IMG/VR virus record: IMGVR_UViG_3300020477_000113
Span: 1-26,483 of that record
Direction: 5' to 3' (one strand)
From: a virus
DNA: 26,483 nt
Part shown: positions 5,471-24,263 of the stretch, one piece after another
Layout: the number at the start of each line of letters is the position of its first letter
How positions within the stretch are numbered: position 1 is the stretch's first letter
Position numbers and translations under genes: made by a program
Notes under the pieces: generated by a model
The model's database searches: none
The model's input: only the letters and a program-made list of their open reading frames with translations
Told to the model about the DNA's origin: nothing

Positions 5471-5914
5471 CTAAAAAGGAATGTCGTCATCAAAGCCAAC
5501 ATCATCGATAGCTTCTGATGCTGGCGTAGATTGTTCTGGTTTAGTGGCTTGTGGTTTCTTACTGGCACCATTCGAGTTTCTGGTATCCAGCATTTGCAGT
5601 GTAGTGCCATATCCGCCGATGGCGATTTCAGTCGTATAACGGTCTGCGCCGTTTTTATCTTCCCATTTACGGGTTTGCAGCTTGCCCTCGATATATAACA
5701 GAGTGCCTTTGCCGACATATTTTTCCACGATGTCAGCCGTTTTTCCAAAAACAACAATCTTATGCCATTCGGTTTTTTCTTGCCGCTCGCCGGATTTATC
5801 CATGTAGCGCTCGGAGGTTGCGATAGAGAATGTGGCGATTTGTTTACCGTCTTGTGTGTGACGGATTTCTGGATCACGGCCTAGTCGGCCAATCAAGGTT
5901 GCTTTATTAAGCAT
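5471..5914 (-). CDS. ssb: single-stranded DNA-binding protein
   Basis: 147 residues with an N-terminal OB fold: it starts MLNKATLIGRLGRDPEIR and contains TEWHKIVVFGKTADI and YIEGKLQTRKW, all characteristic of bacterial-type SSB. A Pro/Ser/Thr-rich linker follows, and the protein ends in the acidic tip DDDIPF that recruits repair and replication partners. It coats single strands during phage replication and recombination. The start has AGGAGG. It lies directly downstream of the Rad52-type annealase, the usual partner. Confidence 0.95.
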   Translation of the reverse strand: MLNKATLIGRLGRDPEIRHTQDGKQIATFSIATSERYMDKSGERQEKTEWHKIVVFGKTADIVEKYVGKGTLLYIEGKLQTRKWEDKNGADRYTTEIAIGGYGTTLQMLDTRNSNGASKKPQATKPEQSTPASEAIDDVGFDDDIPF

Positions 5915-13107: not shown

Positions 13108-13566
13108 TTAGGAGAGATAAAAGGAATCAAAGTCAGCCTGTAGCTTTTCGCGGACTTCCATCAAAAGACGACCCAAATGATTCATTCCAGTACCAGCGCG
13201 ATCAACGCCCCAGAAGCGATCACCCCAGGTATTGCCTTCTATTAAAGTTGCGTTACCTGTATCGAGCAAACGATCTGCTAAGGCGCCATTCTGGGAAAAC
13301 TTTTCCCATAATATCGCACGCATATATTCTATACGCACACGATTCCATTCGGGCCGTAATACACAGGTACGGCCTATCCGCTTGGCTACAGCTGGGGTAA
13401 TAGCGTGTGCCACCGCTATCTTATGTTCCCTACTATCAGACTTTTCTGCCTGGAAAACATGTTCGGCGGATGGATAACTTATACCGCGAAGCTCTATTAG
13501 GCAGGGATAATGGTTCGATAGGAAATGATATTCGCCTCTAAAGCGGCAAATTGCAGCATCAGTCAT
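13108..13566 (-). CDS. NADAR-family (YbiA-like) N-glycosidase
   Basis: 152 residues from ATG 13566, with GGAGG seven bases upstream; ATG 13578 would include that site. Family marks: FRGEYHFLSNHYPC at the N-terminus, SYPSAEHVFQAEKS, a middle REHKIAVAHAITPAVAKRIG, and LIEGNTWGDRFWGV followed by NHLGRLLMEVRE. NADAR proteins cleave N-glycosidic bonds in riboflavin intermediates (YbiA) or remove ADP-ribose from modified guanine and related targets. In an accessory phage operon, reversing host ADP-ribosylation defences is the attractive role; that is inference. The start overlaps the upstream membrane-protein stop (ATGA). Confidence 0.9.
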   Translation of the reverse strand: MTDAAICRFRGEYHFLSNHYPCLIELRGISYPSAEHVFQAEKSDSREHKIAVAHAITPAVAKRIGRTCVLRPEWNRVRIEYMRAILWEKFSQNGALADRLLDTGNATLIEGNTWGDRFWGVDRAGTGMNHLGRLLMEVREKLQADFDSFYLS

Positions 13567-13742
13567 ATATTCCTCCATTCGTTCGAACCGGGTTTATTCA
13601 TCTGGTTAAACCAGAAATTCGGACTCTTTTTCCGCATATTCAGATACCAGACAGCTGCGATATCCAGGCCAGTGAGGCCATAGCGTATGAGGGTAAAGAG
13701 GATAGTCTGGGCATATCCCAGGAACGCAGAACTCGTAAACAT
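13563..13742 (-). CDS. small single-TM membrane protein (59 residues)
   Basis: ATG 13742 with GGAAGG upstream. A hydrophobic segment (about 7-34, AQTILFTLIRYGLTGLDIAA, then VWYL) is followed by a basic, Asn-rich tail. The frame extends further upstream to 13961, but that part crosses a terminator hairpin and the zinc-ribbon gene in another frame, so I take the short form. ATGA overlap couples it to the NADAR gene. A functional link between the two is possible. Confidence 0.6.
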   Translation of the reverse strand: MFTSSAFLGYAQTILFTLIRYGLTGLDIAAVWYLNMRKKSPNFWFNQMNKPGSNEWRNI

Positions 13743-13996: not shown

Positions 13997-14030
13997 AAAA
14001 AAAAGGGCGCCAGCGGTATTGCCAGCGCCC
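13997..14030 (-). terminator. strong leftward intrinsic terminator
   Basis: GGGCGC (14005-14010) pairs with GCGCCC (14025-14030). On the minus strand the hairpin is followed by eight T residues (13997-14004). It lies 23 bases after the stop of the SSB-tip protein gene and separates it from the zinc-ribbon gene. Confidence 0.85.
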
Positions 14031-14052
14031 TCGGGTGAAACCGGATTAGGCG

Positions 14053-14184
14053 TTAAAAAGGTATATCGTCAGTGTCGGGAGCATTCAGGTTCGCGCGAGT
14101 CTGCTCCTCGGCGAGTTCGCTAATCGTCGGCGCTTCGTCGCGCAGACAATCGGAACAGACTTTGCAGTTATCGCAATTACTCAT
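14053..14184 (-). CDS. 43-residue Cys-rich protein with an SSB-type C-terminal tip
   Basis: ATG 14184 has GGAGG eight bases upstream; an in-frame ATG at 14256 lacks one. The protein starts MSNCDNCKVCSDC, giving four Cys at 4, 7, 10 and 13 that could bind a metal, then a short acidic helix (ISELAEEQTR) and the end NAPDTDDIPF. The last five residues, DDIPF, are those of the phage SSB tip (DDDIPF), but codons differ between the two genes, so it is not a recent copy. It is the first leftward gene out of the control region and has its own terminator, so it is likely expressed early. Confidence 0.7.
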   Translation of the reverse strand: MSNCDNCKVCSDCLRDEAPTISELAEEQTRANLNAPDTDDIPF

Positions 14185-14262
14185 CTCATCCTCCAAAAAA
14201 TGTTTAAGTAGTGTGGGTGGTTGCCTTGGTAGCGGGCCGTTTGGGATATCCCTCACGCACGC

Positions 14263-14412
14263 TCAAGGGGTAAACTACGTTTAGGCCACTGCAGAACGCC
14301 TAGCGATCCTTCGTATGCGGTAATTTCCAGAAATAACCGCCGTTACCAGAAGACGAAGAACCGCATACGATGTTTAGGATCGATTGGTGGGCGAAGTGCG
14401 CCGACCCCTTGA
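14263..14412. ncRNA. nested long-range stem-loop domain
   Basis: Four or more stems nest exactly: TCAAGGGGT/ACCCCTTGA (14263-14271 with 14404-14412), CGCC/GGCG (14297-14300 with 14390-14393), CGATCCT/AGGATCG (14304-14310 with 14376-14382) and TCGTATGCGG/CCGCATACGA (14311-14320 with 14361-14370). The last two are continuous on one side, with a five-base bulge on the other. Such nesting over 150 bases is hard to get by chance and suggests a folded RNA or extruded DNA structure. Direction is not decided. Confidence 0.5.
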
Positions 14413-14554
14413 ACTTGCATAAGACGGAACAAACAAAAAGTGTGGCTTTAGCCACTCTCTACCGTCGTGAGGTGTAGCCCATCTCGGCCCCGGCCAAGGC
14501 AAACACACACACACACGCAACAAAACTAGCGTGGGACTAGATGCGAAGTGCGGT

Positions 14555-14748
14555 TCTGGACTTCCAGCAACACCGGATGCATTAGCGAACGCATCGCTAA
14601 TGCTCTTTAAGAGCGCGGAGCGCACCAATTGGAATTTGGAAGACAGTCCCCCCGAGCGAAGCGAAGAAAAGTGGCGTAAAGCGCGAAGGAGTTACGCGAC
14701 TGAGTGTAGCCACTTTATGCCTCTCCAGTATTAAATCGGAAGTCCGGG
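14555..14748. ncRNA. closed multibranch structural domain
   Basis: An 11-bp closing stem (14555-14565 with 14738-14748, two G-T pairs if read as plus-strand RNA) encloses three hairpins: GCATTAGCGA/TCGCTAATGC (14579-14603, loop ACGCA), GCTCT/AGAGC (14602-14614) and AAAGTGGC/GCCACTTT (14668-14716), which itself can hold GCGTAA/TTACGC. The result is a cloverleaf-like layout of about 194 nt. The G-T pairs in the closing stem favour plus-strand RNA. Confidence 0.45.
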
Positions 14749-14792
14749 TTCGCTACGCAGCACAGTCCTTAAGCGGCCTACACCGTGGGGGT

Positions 14793-14977
14793 CCGGGGGT
14801 TTGTCGTAACCCCCGGTGGGGATGCAAGGGGTGAAACCCCTTGCTGGGTAACGAAGGAAGGGAATAAAGACATGATCGTTCCATCGATCATAGTCTTAGG
14901 GGTCAAGGGGCGAAGCCCTTGTGCGGGTCAAGGGAAGCAGTTCCCTTGTCGGGGGGTGTCGGGGGAGCGAAGCCCCC
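14793..14977. repeat. array of five GC-rich hairpins plus one AT-richer hairpin
   Basis: Stems: CCGGGGGTT/AACCCCCGG (14793-14816), GCAAGGGGT/ACCCCTTGC with GAA loop (14824-14844), ATGATCG/CGATCAT (14872-14891), CAAGGG/CCCTTG (14904-14921), CAAGGGAA/TTCCCTTG (14929-14948) and GGGGG/CCCCC (14961-14977). Several share a CAAGGG(G) stem and a GCGAAG loop, so the array probably grew by duplication or convergent shuffling. Such hairpins are not followed by T runs, so they are not ordinary terminators. Confidence 0.6.
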
Positions 14978-15119
14978 TGATATGCGAAGCAAGCCATAAC
15001 GGCTCGACATTCAAAATGACGATATCGTATTCCCGTGTTAGCAAGTGTGAAATCCTAAGACGCTGACAAAGCTCACTGTTTCCATTGTGCGTAGACAAGA
15101 AATTAGAGCGCGGCCCTTC

Positions 15120-15125
15120 TATAAT
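15120..15125 (+). promoter_or_regulatory. candidate -10 of the late promoter
   Basis: A perfect TATAAT lies 34 bases before the small-terminase ATG. The best -35-like hexamer, TAGACA at 15092-15097, is 22 bases away, too far for an unaided sigma-70 promoter, so an activator or other -35 would be required. It is the only strong -10 facing the late genes in the control region. Confidence 0.35.
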
Positions 15126-15159
15126 TCCCCGCAGTCGTTACAGAAGTGAAGCTAGGTAC

Positions 15160-15603
15160 ATGCCGAAGAAGAAGAAATCTCAGTCGCAACTCAAACACGC
15201 CGTCCCAACACCAGTTGGCGAAGTACAGCTGACAAGACGACAGAAAGCAGTCGTTGATGCCATGGTAGAAGGCGAGCCAGACGGTGAAGGCGTGTTGCGA
15301 CCTGTGACCGTGACAAGAGCAGCGGAAATCGCCGGATACGCTAAAGGCGAGAGTGGCCGAACAGCAGCCTCTAAAACTCTCCGAAGACCTCATGTTCAAG
15401 CATATCTCTTTCAGAGAGTAGCAGAACAGGTTGGTCTAGGTGCTGTTGGAGCTTCACATGTACTCAATCGCTTAGCACTCAGTGCCAAGAGTGAGTATGT
15501 GCAACTCGAAGCAAGCAAGGATCTCCTCGATCGTGCAGGGTTCAAGGCACCAGAAAAGGTGCAGCACCAGCACGACGTGTCGATCAACATAGACCTCGGA
15601 TGA
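15160..15603 (+). CDS. terminase small subunit
   Basis: 147 residues. A basic N-terminus (MPKKKKSQ) leads to a helix-turn-helix (LTRRQKAVVDAMVEG, then VTRAAEIAGYAKGESGRTAASKTLRRPHVQAYL), then a helical middle (ASHVLNRLALSAKSEYVQLEASKDLLDRAG) and the end HQHDVSINIDLG. This layout, with the HxHDVSINIDL-type tail, is that of phage small terminases, which recognise the packaging site and recruit the large subunit. The frame extends to 15085 upstream, but MPKKKK fits best. It faces away from the control region, which may include the packaging site. Confidence 0.85.
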   Translation: MPKKKKSQSQLKHAVPTPVGEVQLTRRQKAVVDAMVEGEPDGEGVLRPVTVTRAAEIAGYAKGESGRTAASKTLRRPHVQAYLFQRVAEQVGLGAVGASHVLNRLALSAKSEYVQLEASKDLLDRAGFKAPEKVQHQHDVSINIDLG

Positions 15604-21525: not shown

Positions 21526-22385
21526 TGCTGATCCGAACCCCCCACCCCTATTTACAGGCCGAAAATGATAGCGGCGCAACTTCTGATGCCGAAGTAGAAA
21601 TCAACGGTACGGAAACCGCTCGTCCTGAGTGGATGCCAGAAAAGTTCTGGGATAACGGCAAAGGCGAGGCGAACATCGAGGCATTGGCAACGTCTTACAG
21701 CCATCAAGAGCAAGAACTCAGCCGTATCGTTCGTGGCGGCAAGACTGCGGAAGAATGGCGCAATGAAGTCCGGGCTGATGTGGAAAAGGAAGTAACGCAA
21801 GGCCAGATAAAAGACCGGCCAGAAAAGGTTGAGGACTATAAATTCAATATACCGGACGATGCCCTGCCCGAAGGCACCGAATGGCAAATGAATGAAGACG
21901 ATCCGCTTTTATCATGGTGGCGGCAAACGGCATATGACAACGGGTTTGGTCAAGACAAGTTTGATGCCGGAATAGCCGAATATGTGAAAATGCAAGCCGC
22001 CAACATGCCGAATTACGATGCCGAAGTGGCCGCGCTTGGCAGCAACGGCTCCGAGCGAATTGAGGCCGTAAATCTTTGGGCCAAGGCCAATCTGACCGAA
22101 GATTCCTATAAGGCCCTGGAAGGTGTGGTGACAACGGCTAACGGCATTAAGATGGTAGAGGAGATCCAATCCCTTACGAAAAATGCGCGTGTGAACAATG
22201 GCAGCGAAGCGCCGGTTCCCAACGCGCCGAAAAGCAAGTCTGAGATTAAGGCTATGCAAAATGATCCGCGCTATTGGGACCCCCTACAGCGCGACGAAAC
22301 ATATGTTGCTGAAGTGGAGGCCGCTTGGAAGCGTGCCTATCCCGGCAACAAAGCAACTGCACCCTCCAATCCGACAGGCGGATAG
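21525..22385 (+). CDS. capsid assembly scaffolding protein
   Basis: 286 residues from ATG 21525, which overlaps the previous TGA. The protein is acidic with helices: PEWMPEKFWDNGKGEANIEA, LATSYSHQEQELSRIV, then an acidic middle (KFNIPDDALPEGTEWQMN) and a C-terminal part with IKAMQNDPRYWDPLQRD and YVAEVEAAWKRAYPG. The 'PEKFwd...G..n.eaL..sY..lE..l' start and basic C-terminus are those of T7 gp9-like scaffolds. It directs procapsid assembly and leaves the shell during packaging. It is located between the portal and the capsid, as expected. Confidence 0.85.
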   Translation: MLIRTPHPYLQAENDSGATSDAEVEINGTETARPEWMPEKFWDNGKGEANIEALATSYSHQEQELSRIVRGGKTAEEWRNEVRADVEKEVTQGQIKDRPEKVEDYKFNIPDDALPEGTEWQMNEDDPLLSWWRQTAYDNGFGQDKFDAGIAEYVKMQAANMPNYDAEVAALGSNGSERIEAVNLWAKANLTEDSYKALEGVVTTANGIKMVEEIQSLTKNARVNNGSEAPVPNAPKSKSEIKAMQNDPRYWDPLQRDETYVAEVEAAWKRAYPGNKATAPSNPTGG

Positions 22386-22516
22386 GAGGCATGTAGGCCA
22401 GAGGTCATTTAAGCGGCCCTGTGAAACCGTTCCCGGCCCCGTAAGGCCAAACCGGATTTACGGAAAAACAGCCAAACCGTCAGACCAACGGATGAAGAAG
22501 AAGTGGAGGGCTAGTT

Positions 22517-23338
22517 ATGGCAGCCAACACTATCTCTACTGCCTTCATCGAGCAGTTTGAAGCTGACGTTCATATGGCTTACCAACGCCAAGGTTCGAAG
22601 CTACGGAATACTGTTCGAACGAAGAACAACGTCTCGAACAAGACAACTTTTCAGAAAGTTGCCAAGGGCGCGGCGTCGCAGAAGTCAAGGGGCGGTGACG
22701 TTTCGCCGATGAATCTCGCGCATACAAACGTCAACGTCACCCTGCAAGACTGGTACGCAAGTGAATACATCGATGATCTCGATGAGCTTCGTATCAACAT
22801 TGACGAGCGCATGGTAGCCGCCAGTTCCGGTGCCTGGGCGCTTGGTCGTAAAACCGACGAGTTGATAACAACGGCGATGGACGCCACGACAAGCACCATC
22901 GCACACGGCTCGGCGGCATTGACCAAGGCCAAGGTCACTTCGGCGTTTGAAACTCTCGGTAACAACGATGTTCCCGAAGACGAAGGACGCTTCTGGGTCA
23001 TGGGCTTCCAGCAATGGACTGACCTGATGGATATTACCGAGTTCGCAAGTCTCGATTATATCGGTCCAGGTACAGGCCCATGGCTTGACGGTGTAACGGC
23101 CAAGCGGTGGCTTGGTTTCACCATGTTCGCTTTTTCCGGGTTAGACGTTGCGAGCAGTATTCGCAAGACGTTTGCCTATCACCGGTCCTCGATTGGTCAC
23201 GCAATCGGGGCTGACGTGGAACTCGACGTGACGTGGCAAGGTACAAAGCAAGCTCATCTGTTTGTAAACAAGATGCAGATGAACGCAGTTTTGATCGACG
23301 CCAACGGCATCATCGAAGTTTCGTGTCAGGAATCGTAG
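22517..23338 (+). CDS. major capsid protein
   Basis: 273 residues. Begins MAANTISTAFIEQFEADVHM and continues YQRQGSKLRNTVRTKNNV, then DWYASEYIDDLDELRINID and WVMGFQQWTDLMDI. This matches the HK97-fold capsid family of podoviruses related to pelagiphage (Phage_capsid_2-type). GGAGGG lies nine bases upstream. A 131-base gap before it, holding GGCC inverted repeats but no gene, may carry a separate promoter or leader. It forms the shell. Confidence 0.9.
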   Translation: MAANTISTAFIEQFEADVHMAYQRQGSKLRNTVRTKNNVSNKTTFQKVAKGAASQKSRGGDVSPMNLAHTNVNVTLQDWYASEYIDDLDELRINIDERMVAASSGAWALGRKTDELITTAMDATTSTIAHGSAALTKAKVTSAFETLGNNDVPEDEGRFWVMGFQQWTDLMDITEFASLDYIGPGTGPWLDGVTAKRWLGFTMFAFSGLDVASSIRKTFAYHRSSIGHAIGADVELDVTWQGTKQAHLFVNKMQMNAVLIDANGIIEVSCQES

Positions 23339-23350
23339 GAGGGTTGAAAG

Positions 23351-23614
23351 ATGGCTTTTTCTCGTACAAGTCTGACGGCACTTGCCTACGGCAACAGTTA
23401 CACTTTGTGGCACTATACGTCTACAGATGCCAAGGCAAGTGTGGATTCGGCCAATTACTTTGCTAATGCGGCTGAGTTGCTACAAGTCGGTGACACTATA
23501 TTTGTCTATGATTCGAACACACCTACCATGACGATCATGCAGGTTCTGTCGAACGATGGGACAAATGTAGACGTGTCAGACGGCACCGCCATTTCGATGA
23601 CGGACACCGATTAG
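23351..23614 (+). CDS. small head protein after the capsid
   Basis: 87 residues of beta-rich composition: MAFSRTSLTALAYGNSYTLW, then ANYFANAAELLQVGDTIFVY and a Thr/Asp-rich end. Proteins starting 'MAF....L..la...g....wHY...D....v...gYF..a...l..GD.i.v' follow the capsid in many alphaproteobacterial phages and may be decoration proteins. GGAGGG lies upstream. A hairpin at 23623-23654 follows. Confidence 0.8.
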   Translation: MAFSRTSLTALAYGNSYTLWHYTSTDAKASVDSANYFANAAELLQVGDTIFVYDSNTPTMTIMQVLSNDGTNVDVSDGTAISMTDTD

Positions 23615-23622
23615 AGAGTGTC

Positions 23623-23654
23623 GAGCGGAGGGTGAGGCGACTCACCTTCCGCTC
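23623..23654 (+). terminator. 14-bp stem-loop with GCGA loop after the capsid genes
   Basis: GAGCGGA-GGGTGAG pairs with CTCACC-TTCCGCTC (one G-T) around GCGA, a GNRA-type loop. Few T residues follow, so it is more likely a leaky terminator or an mRNA 3'-end stabiliser, as often seen after capsid genes. Confidence 0.6.
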
Positions 23655-23672
23655 ACATTCTTGTGAGGCAAT

Positions 23673-24263
23673 ATGGCCGAAACCGATATCTCCGTAGCCA
23701 ATCAAGCGCTCGTCCGTATCGGCGGCGCGGCGATTACTTCGTTTACCGACGGCACAACGGAATCCTCCGTTGCGTCCACGCTCTATGAAACCTATGTACG
23801 CGGCCAGCTGGCGCTGACACGGTGGAATTGGGCGAAGAAAGATTTCTCCCTCAACAAGAACTCAGATACGCCTCTTGAGATGTGGGACTACGGTTATGAT
23901 GTTCCCAGCGATCTTCTTGTTCTTCATCGTGTACTGTACGGTGATCGGGACATTGAGTTCGAACGTTTCAAGGATTTGATCTACACCAATCAGGATAACG
24001 ACGCTGATGATGTAGTGGCGATCTATACCTACCGTGTCGATGAGAATGACTGGCCTGCCGATTTTCTATTATCGGTAGTTACCGGGCTGGCCGCGCAATT
24101 TGCAACGTCGCTGGCGCGGGATGACAAGATGGCGGCTGTTCTGTCAGAAGAAGGCGCTGTTCTGTTCGCGCAGTCGCGGCGTAACGATGCTCAAGGTCAA
24201 ACCGCAAAACGTGCAAATATATCCCGCCTGACGGGGGCGCGGCTGCGTGGAGCGCGTGGCTGA
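23673..24263 (+). CDS. tail tubular protein A (T7 gp11-like)
   Basis: 196 residues. The start ETDISVANQALVRIGGAAIT, then YVRGQLALTRWNWAKKDFSL and LPSD-type DVPSDLLVLHRVLYGDR, and a C-terminal helix QSRRNDAQGQTAKR match the gp11/adaptor family that joins the portal to the tail nozzle. It precedes the large tail protein with a one-base overlap (TGATG). Confidence 0.88.
   Translation: MAETDISVANQALVRIGGAAITSFTDGTTESSVASTLYETYVRGQLALTRWNWAKKDFSLNKNSDTPLEMWDYGYDVPSDLLVLHRVLYGDRDIEFERFKDLIYTNQDNDADDVVAIYTYRVDENDWPADFLLSVVTGLAAQFATSLARDDKMAAVLSEEGAVLFAQSRRNDAQGQTAKRANISRLTGARLRGARG

Follow-up and report, generated by a model that had tools for sequence, protein, structure and literature searches.

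The locus

What occupies the gene-free gap between the two divergent gene sets of a virus, and does it act as DNA or as RNA? The question is raised by a 26.5-kb viral DNA (26,483 nt; IMGVR_UViG_3300020477_000113, positions 1 to 26,483), the whole of which is hereafter called the window. Leftward genes occupy the region ~1.8-14.2 kb, and encode an integrase, an exonuclease, a recombination-type protein, RusA, a NADAR protein and others. Rightward late genes start from terS (15160), and encode TerS, TerL (17025), a head-tail connector (PF12236), a capsid protein (PF19821) and a tail protein. The block 14185-15159 (975 nt) is the entire gap between the two sets, the leftward gene starting at 14184 and the ATG of terS lying at 15160. 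These coordinates agree with the earlier note on this DNA, in which the block was said to divide early from late genes and to adjoin terS. No tRNA genes were found in the window. The block is flanked by:

15160 to 15603, plus strand: terS, small terminase subunit (PHROG 2538/51 terminase small subunit; Pfam Terminase_2 slightly under cut-off)
14053 to 14184, minus strand: small leftward gene (43 aa) adjoining the RNA described below; similar-looking small Cys-rich ORFs lie at the same place in the related records L084, L088 and L110

Folding of the block

The minimum free energy (MFE) of the block is -395.1 on the plus strand, against -322.9 (sd 10) in dinucleotide shuffles (z -7.3), and the minus strand folds about equally well (z -7.6). 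Perfect inverted repeats of 9-11 bp are found at 14311/14360, 14579/14594, 14793/14808 and 14824/14836, and a long helix (14211-14257/14466-14512) spans 47 nt with 72% complementarity. The description of a gene-free block filled with hairpins is thus borne out, the folding being above chance and coding support missing. In a fold scan of the whole window, the segment 14501-15000 has a z of -6.5, against an average of -1.2 (sd 1.7) outside the block. The only comparable stretch resides at 22.2-24 kb (22250-24000; z -4 to -7.2), and covers the last part of the capsid gene together with the small ORFs that come next, all coding sequence. Fold z-scores of the RNA region are between -5 and -9 in the window, in L084, L088 and L110 and in a fourth record, L106.

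Homologues and distribution

Relatives were gathered via the small terminase, the large terminase and DNA patterns derived from the RNA core. Three divergent records, L084, L088 and L110, whose TerS proteins are 60-64% identical to that of the window, have the same RNA upstream of terS; in all full-length homologues it lies directly upstream of this gene, on the same strand. L126, a contig from a Latescibacterota bin, and the records L106/L107/L109/L112 have the core only, with another internal insert. The TerS of L106 is just ~32% identical; here, too, the core resides on the terS/terL strand, the other gene set is divergent, and terS is separated from the RNA core by small ORFs of the opposite strand. 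Full-length lineages are only four, and the 3' domain is poorly conserved.

A DNA search of the isolated phages in the collection identified none with this RNA. Among isolates, a TerS match was obtained for Pelagibacter phage EXVC031P Hodr alone; its layout is divergent in the same way, but the gap measures only ~0.3 kb. Scanning the genome collection with the 16-base core gave 23 matches, one of which (L126) is real; in the remaining 22 no other part of the core is present, and they are chance-like. Relaxed patterns of the core, and patterns of the second motif, yielded no further lineage. Similarly, the core models R1 and R2 found no match in the other TerS phages searched, and core models found none in 289 genomes from the class of a Hyphomicrobiales MAG, where an empty result is weakly informative.

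Covariation and consensus structure

The full-length alignment includes four sequences (window, L084, L088, L110) and 540 columns, and its consensus consists of 92 pairs. Changes on both sides were found in 29 of them, against 10.6 in shuffles, and none of 500 shuffles scored as high. In the core, aligned from six records, double-change pairs are 17, against 7.5 in shuffles. Covariation among homologues was the test proposed in the earlier note, and compensatory changes were found in both alignments. The covariation score of 0.355 falls to 0.04-0.07 in all slid versions, and the full-length consensus energy is 16 sd below that of column-shuffled alignments. Paired cells in the four-sequence alignment are 95.3%, against 85.3% in shuffles, a percentage that leans toward the consensus structure because this was derived from the same sequences; double changes are the stronger measure. 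Folded singly, L084, L088 and L110 give the same core stems. In L106 the arms of the helices P1 and P2 (listed below) pair in the MFE structure, and the centroid retains only P1.

The structure and its conservation leave very little room for doubt. Since base-pairing has been kept in related viruses, it is almost certain that the block gives rise to a large folded RNA, one whose family has not been described.

Anatomy of the RNA

The earlier note had the whole of 14185-15159 built of hairpins. This holds for the region ~14211-14990, but not for ~15027-15125, which hosts a dyad and a promoter-like stretch. The elements recognized are:

14211 to 14990, plus strand (moderately favoured): large structured noncoding RNA, approximate limits; fold z -7.3, consensus structure and covariation with L084, L088 and L110
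14211 to 14512, plus strand: 5' domain; closing helix 14211-14235 / 14488-14512, 3' arm (CA)n, 20 consensus pairs
14251-14255 (CCUCA) / 14468-14472 (UGAGG), plus strand: junction helix, every cell paired, mostly invariant
14263-14270 (UCAAGGGG) / 14405-14412 (CCCCUUGA), plus strand: P1, invariant in six records
14272 to 14283, plus strand: AAACUACGUUUA between P1 and P2, identical in all lineages found
14284-14290 (GGCCACU) / 14395-14402 (AGUGCGCC), plus strand: P2, one bulge; consensus GGYCRCU/AGYG-C-GCC
14299-14310 / 14376-14387, plus strand: P3, covarying in the window, L084, L088 and L110
14311-14320 / 14361-14370, plus strand: P4, covarying in the same four sequences
14423-14427 (GACGG) / 14462-14466 (CCGUC), plus strand: P5, with a small hairpin within; double changes in 4 of 5 pairs
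14537 to 14557, plus strand: second conserved block, opening the 3' domain (CUAGAUGCGAAGUGCGGUUCU); conserved in L084, L088 and L110
14579 to 14981, plus strand: 3' domain, serial hairpins, weakly conserved
15027 to 15053, no strand assigned: dyad GTATTCCCGTG...GTGTGAAAT, common to L084, L088 and L110 in the alignment
15092 to 15125, plus strand: putative late promoter before terS, read from the alignment; the promoter scan made no call

In the closing helix of the 5' domain five pairs changed on both sides, and 91% of cells are paired. The invariant junction is ordered as UCAAGGGG-N-AAACUACGUUUA-GGYCRCU ... AGYGCGCC-GA-CCCCUUGA. P1 extends outward through covarying pairs (14257-14261 / 14414-14418), and P2 exhibits, across lineages, an A-U/G-C double change and a C-G/U-G change. 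The AAACUACGUUUA segment, in which a 4-bp mini hairpin is possible, is proposed as a candidate binding or tertiary-contact site. P3 and P4 are replaced by another insert in L106/L126. Hairpins of the 3' domain map at 14579-14603, 14793-14816, 14824-14844, 14904-14921, ~14926-14948 and ~14958-14981; the last two have counterparts in the alignment of the relatives.

Closer to terS, the dyad may be an operator. It is overlapped by a minus-strand promoter-like sequence (15051-15024, 9/12), a match within chance. At the putative late promoter L084, L088 and L110 carry TTGACA; the window carries TAGACA, and TATAAT at 15120, at an unusual spacing. Scans revealed no promoter for the 5' end of the RNA and no plus-strand terminator-like site in the region; terminator-like sites are found on the minus strand at 14455-14442 and 14892-14871.

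Comparison with known RNA families

No credible Rfam match was found for the block at gathering or permissive thresholds (E <= 10), nor for its homologues at E <= 1. The best match, Clostridiales-2, is a 23-bit hairpin well under the 58.6 cut-off. The GOLLD and ROOL covariance models match neither the block nor its homologues. As the models do not match, no membership in the GOLLD, ROOL, OLE or intron families is claimed; the earlier note, too, could claim no identity with a known ornate RNA. A literature search, beyond whose reach lay most subscription papers and preprints, retrieved no published description of this RNA.

GOLLD RNAs, which have been examined by cryo-EM, are phage-encoded, with many members >800 nt, an elaborate secondary structure, no known function, a better conserved 3' part, and a location often close to tRNA genes (PMC12286853). 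The block resembles them in being phage-encoded, in size, in elaborate structure, and in having one part conserved better than the other. However, the better conserved part is here the 5' one, Rfam gives no match, and the block lies between early genes and terS in a window devoid of tRNAs. ROOL is a large phage RNA made of many helices, for which no protein partner is known; it often lies near tRNA islands and forms a homo-oligomeric RNA cage (PMC12286853). The block would likewise encode a large multi-helix phage RNA, but differs from ROOL in the missing Rfam match and tRNA neighbours. OLE RNA is ~600 nt long and comes from Gram-positive extremophile bacteria (PMC9723947). Large size, ornate structure and highly conserved unpaired stretches are shared features; bacterial origin, the ~600-nt length and the absence of an Rfam match for the block set the two apart.

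The packaging pRNA of phi29-type phages is <200 nt, and serves a different packaging system. It is also a packaging-connected phage noncoding RNA, but the analogy is limited to the position of the block beside terS; size, packaging system and the missing Rfam match differ.

A covariation-supported multi-helix structure of several hundred nt, as expected of large ornate phage noncoding RNAs, is found in the block, and a new family of such RNAs is the best reading. The homologues thus support what the earlier note had proposed as its main reading, an ornate phage RNA of GOLLD- or ROOL-like size located between early and late genes.

Strand, transcription and function

We hold with moderate confidence that the block encodes, on the plus strand, a ~0.8 kb noncoding RNA acting at a late stage as a GOLLD/ROOL-like RNA particle or RNP. 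In the model proposed, the strand that carries terS and the late genes would be read into this RNA, which would fold into a 5' domain, closed by a long helix one arm of which is (CA)n, and a 3' domain rich in hairpins. The invariant junction within the 5' domain would most likely bind a partner, be it a protein, a second copy of the same RNA or some other RNA. The RNA would be produced, or accumulate, at the late stage, and would work as an RNA particle or RNP, as the ornate phage RNAs GOLLD and ROOL may do. Being linked to terS, it may act in packaging or around the early-to-late switch. We infer a separate or processed transcript, as we do its timing, partner and role.

Alternatively, the late operon could begin with this RNA as its long structured 5' leader: transcripts would start near 14200 and continue across the RNA into terS, and antitermination or translation of late genes would be governed by the structure. 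The constant position of the RNA directly upstream of terS is compatible with this, and the failure to find a 5' promoter or a plus-strand terminator suits a leader no less than a separate RNA. Yet the relatives have in common a promoter-like TTGACA stretch, situated past the RNA and before terS, opposite-strand small ORFs intervene in L106, and 0.8 kb, with an invariant junction, is a large size for a leader acting in cis. A late leader seems rather unlikely.

The plus strand is probably the one transcribed into the RNA; several measures favour it, though none of them decisively. The consensus energy is -164.7 on the plus and -145.8 on the minus strand, a difference which, corrected for composition, amounts to 1.8 sd in this group, is larger in two other groups and is absent in the rest. 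Positions unpaired in both single-strand folds of the window are purine-rich (A 43%, G 25%, T 20%, C 12%), a composition close to that of unpaired rRNA positions. Unbiased wobble counts (11 GU against 8 AC cells) weakly favour the same strand, such counting being almost uninformative for helices common to both strands, and tetraloop signatures are too few to assign a strand. Energy, composition and, weakly, wobble pairs argue against a minus-strand structured 5' leader of the leftward early operon, driven by a promoter near the dyad 15027-15053. The minus-strand terminator-like sites would moreover cut such a leader. Though the minus strand of the window folds equally well, no obvious leftward promoter lies immediately beside the small leftward gene, and the 9/12 match falls inside a dyad common to the relatives, this match is at chance level, and we regard the hypothesis as improbable.

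Packaging sites are often found in or beside terS, which the block adjoins, and the base skew shifts near 14 kb. This would suit a DNA element, either a packaging initiation site or a replication origin or both, whose hairpins act in single-stranded or cruciform DNA; the enrichment upstream of terS of GCGAAGC, a stable mini-hairpin, would fit as well. But the switch of coding strand gives the same skew change, no iterons, Rep sites or phage ends came to light, and a multi-branched, covarying architecture whose helix arms are separated by ~40 to 250 nt would be expected in RNA rather than in duplex DNA. A DNA element is a faint prospect. Other readings were rejected: ORFs inside the block match no PHROG family, and homologues show stops in their frames or no match; the hairpins are single-copy within the record, not repeats scattered through it; and no group I or II intron model matches a block that lies between genes, not within one.

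Only a few large ornate phage RNAs have been described to our knowledge, and the functions of GOLLD and ROOL are not known. The fixed position beside terS, a mutable invariant junction and possible diverged counterparts in many phages would make the ornate RNA proposed here a direct genetic handle on the function of giant phage RNAs. The block also illustrates how annotation can overlook a structured RNA gene where early and late genes of a phage are separated by a gap devoid of genes.

Sequences upstream of terS in other phages

The other TerS relatives searched lack this core, yet many have a structured sequence of their own upstream of terS. In a number of loci, 200-nt windows have z values as low as -5 to -11. 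In 34 of 66 loci, but in none of 57 coding controls, the best long-range helix is better than that of any of 20 shuffles. Loci share ancestry, so that such counts are not independent, and the test is not sensitive, since the clearly structured L005, L011 and L088 fail it. Perfect hairpins occur at 2.8 per kb against 0.47. Of 57 upstream regions, 23 contain alternating tracts of CA/GT or TA, compared with 5 of 51 controls. In L004-L006, L011, L065 and the window an alternating tract forms one arm of the best long-range helix; L037 hosts a 27-bp perfect helix with arms ~500 nt apart. Consensus folds of eight other groups, several made of two or three sequences, are on the plus strand 3.4 to 16 sd better than those of shuffled alignments.

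The block RNA perhaps belongs to a set of early/late-boundary RNAs that diverge fast. Tentatively, in a large clade of tailed phages from the environment that have this terminase set, a boundary RNA may have been kept in position and general architecture (a long closing helix, often with one alternating purine-pyrimidine arm), while its sequence diverged past recognition into many families. If this doubtful but possible scenario is true, the boundary RNA would be of a kind not described so far, an RNA that evolves fast and takes part in packaging or in the late programme of the phage.

Long imperfect inverted repeats, with arms of 37-81 nt lying 200-450 nt apart, are found upstream of terS in L026/L029, L038, L041, L050 and L052. 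One arm is apparently located in the 5' end of the leftward gene, the other near terS; where an arm is apparently inside the gene (L038, L041, L052, L026/L029), some may be inverted duplications rather than such RNAs.

GCGAAGC, which forms a very stable DNA mini-hairpin, is enriched, mostly on one strand, in the 1 kb upstream of terS: 29 copies on the plus and 6 on the minus strand in 57 loci, against 9 and 3, respectively, in a longer coding control.

Genes next to the boundary

Tiny Cys-rich, zinc-ribbon-like proteins flank the RNA in the window (14053-14184, minus strand), L088, L110 and L084. Those of the window, L088 and L110 end with DDIPF, as does the SSB-like protein of the window (5471-5914). 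DDIPF is a C-terminal tip typical of single-strand DNA-binding proteins, and the tiny proteins may compete with SSB for its partners. A strong intrinsic terminator (14003-14032, minus strand) is found immediately past the tiny gene of the window, which may thus be a separate short transcript. Also close to the early/late boundary lies the NADAR-domain protein (13108-13578, minus strand; PF08719; PADLOC PDC-M42C), possibly acting on ADP-ribosylated DNA in counter-defence.
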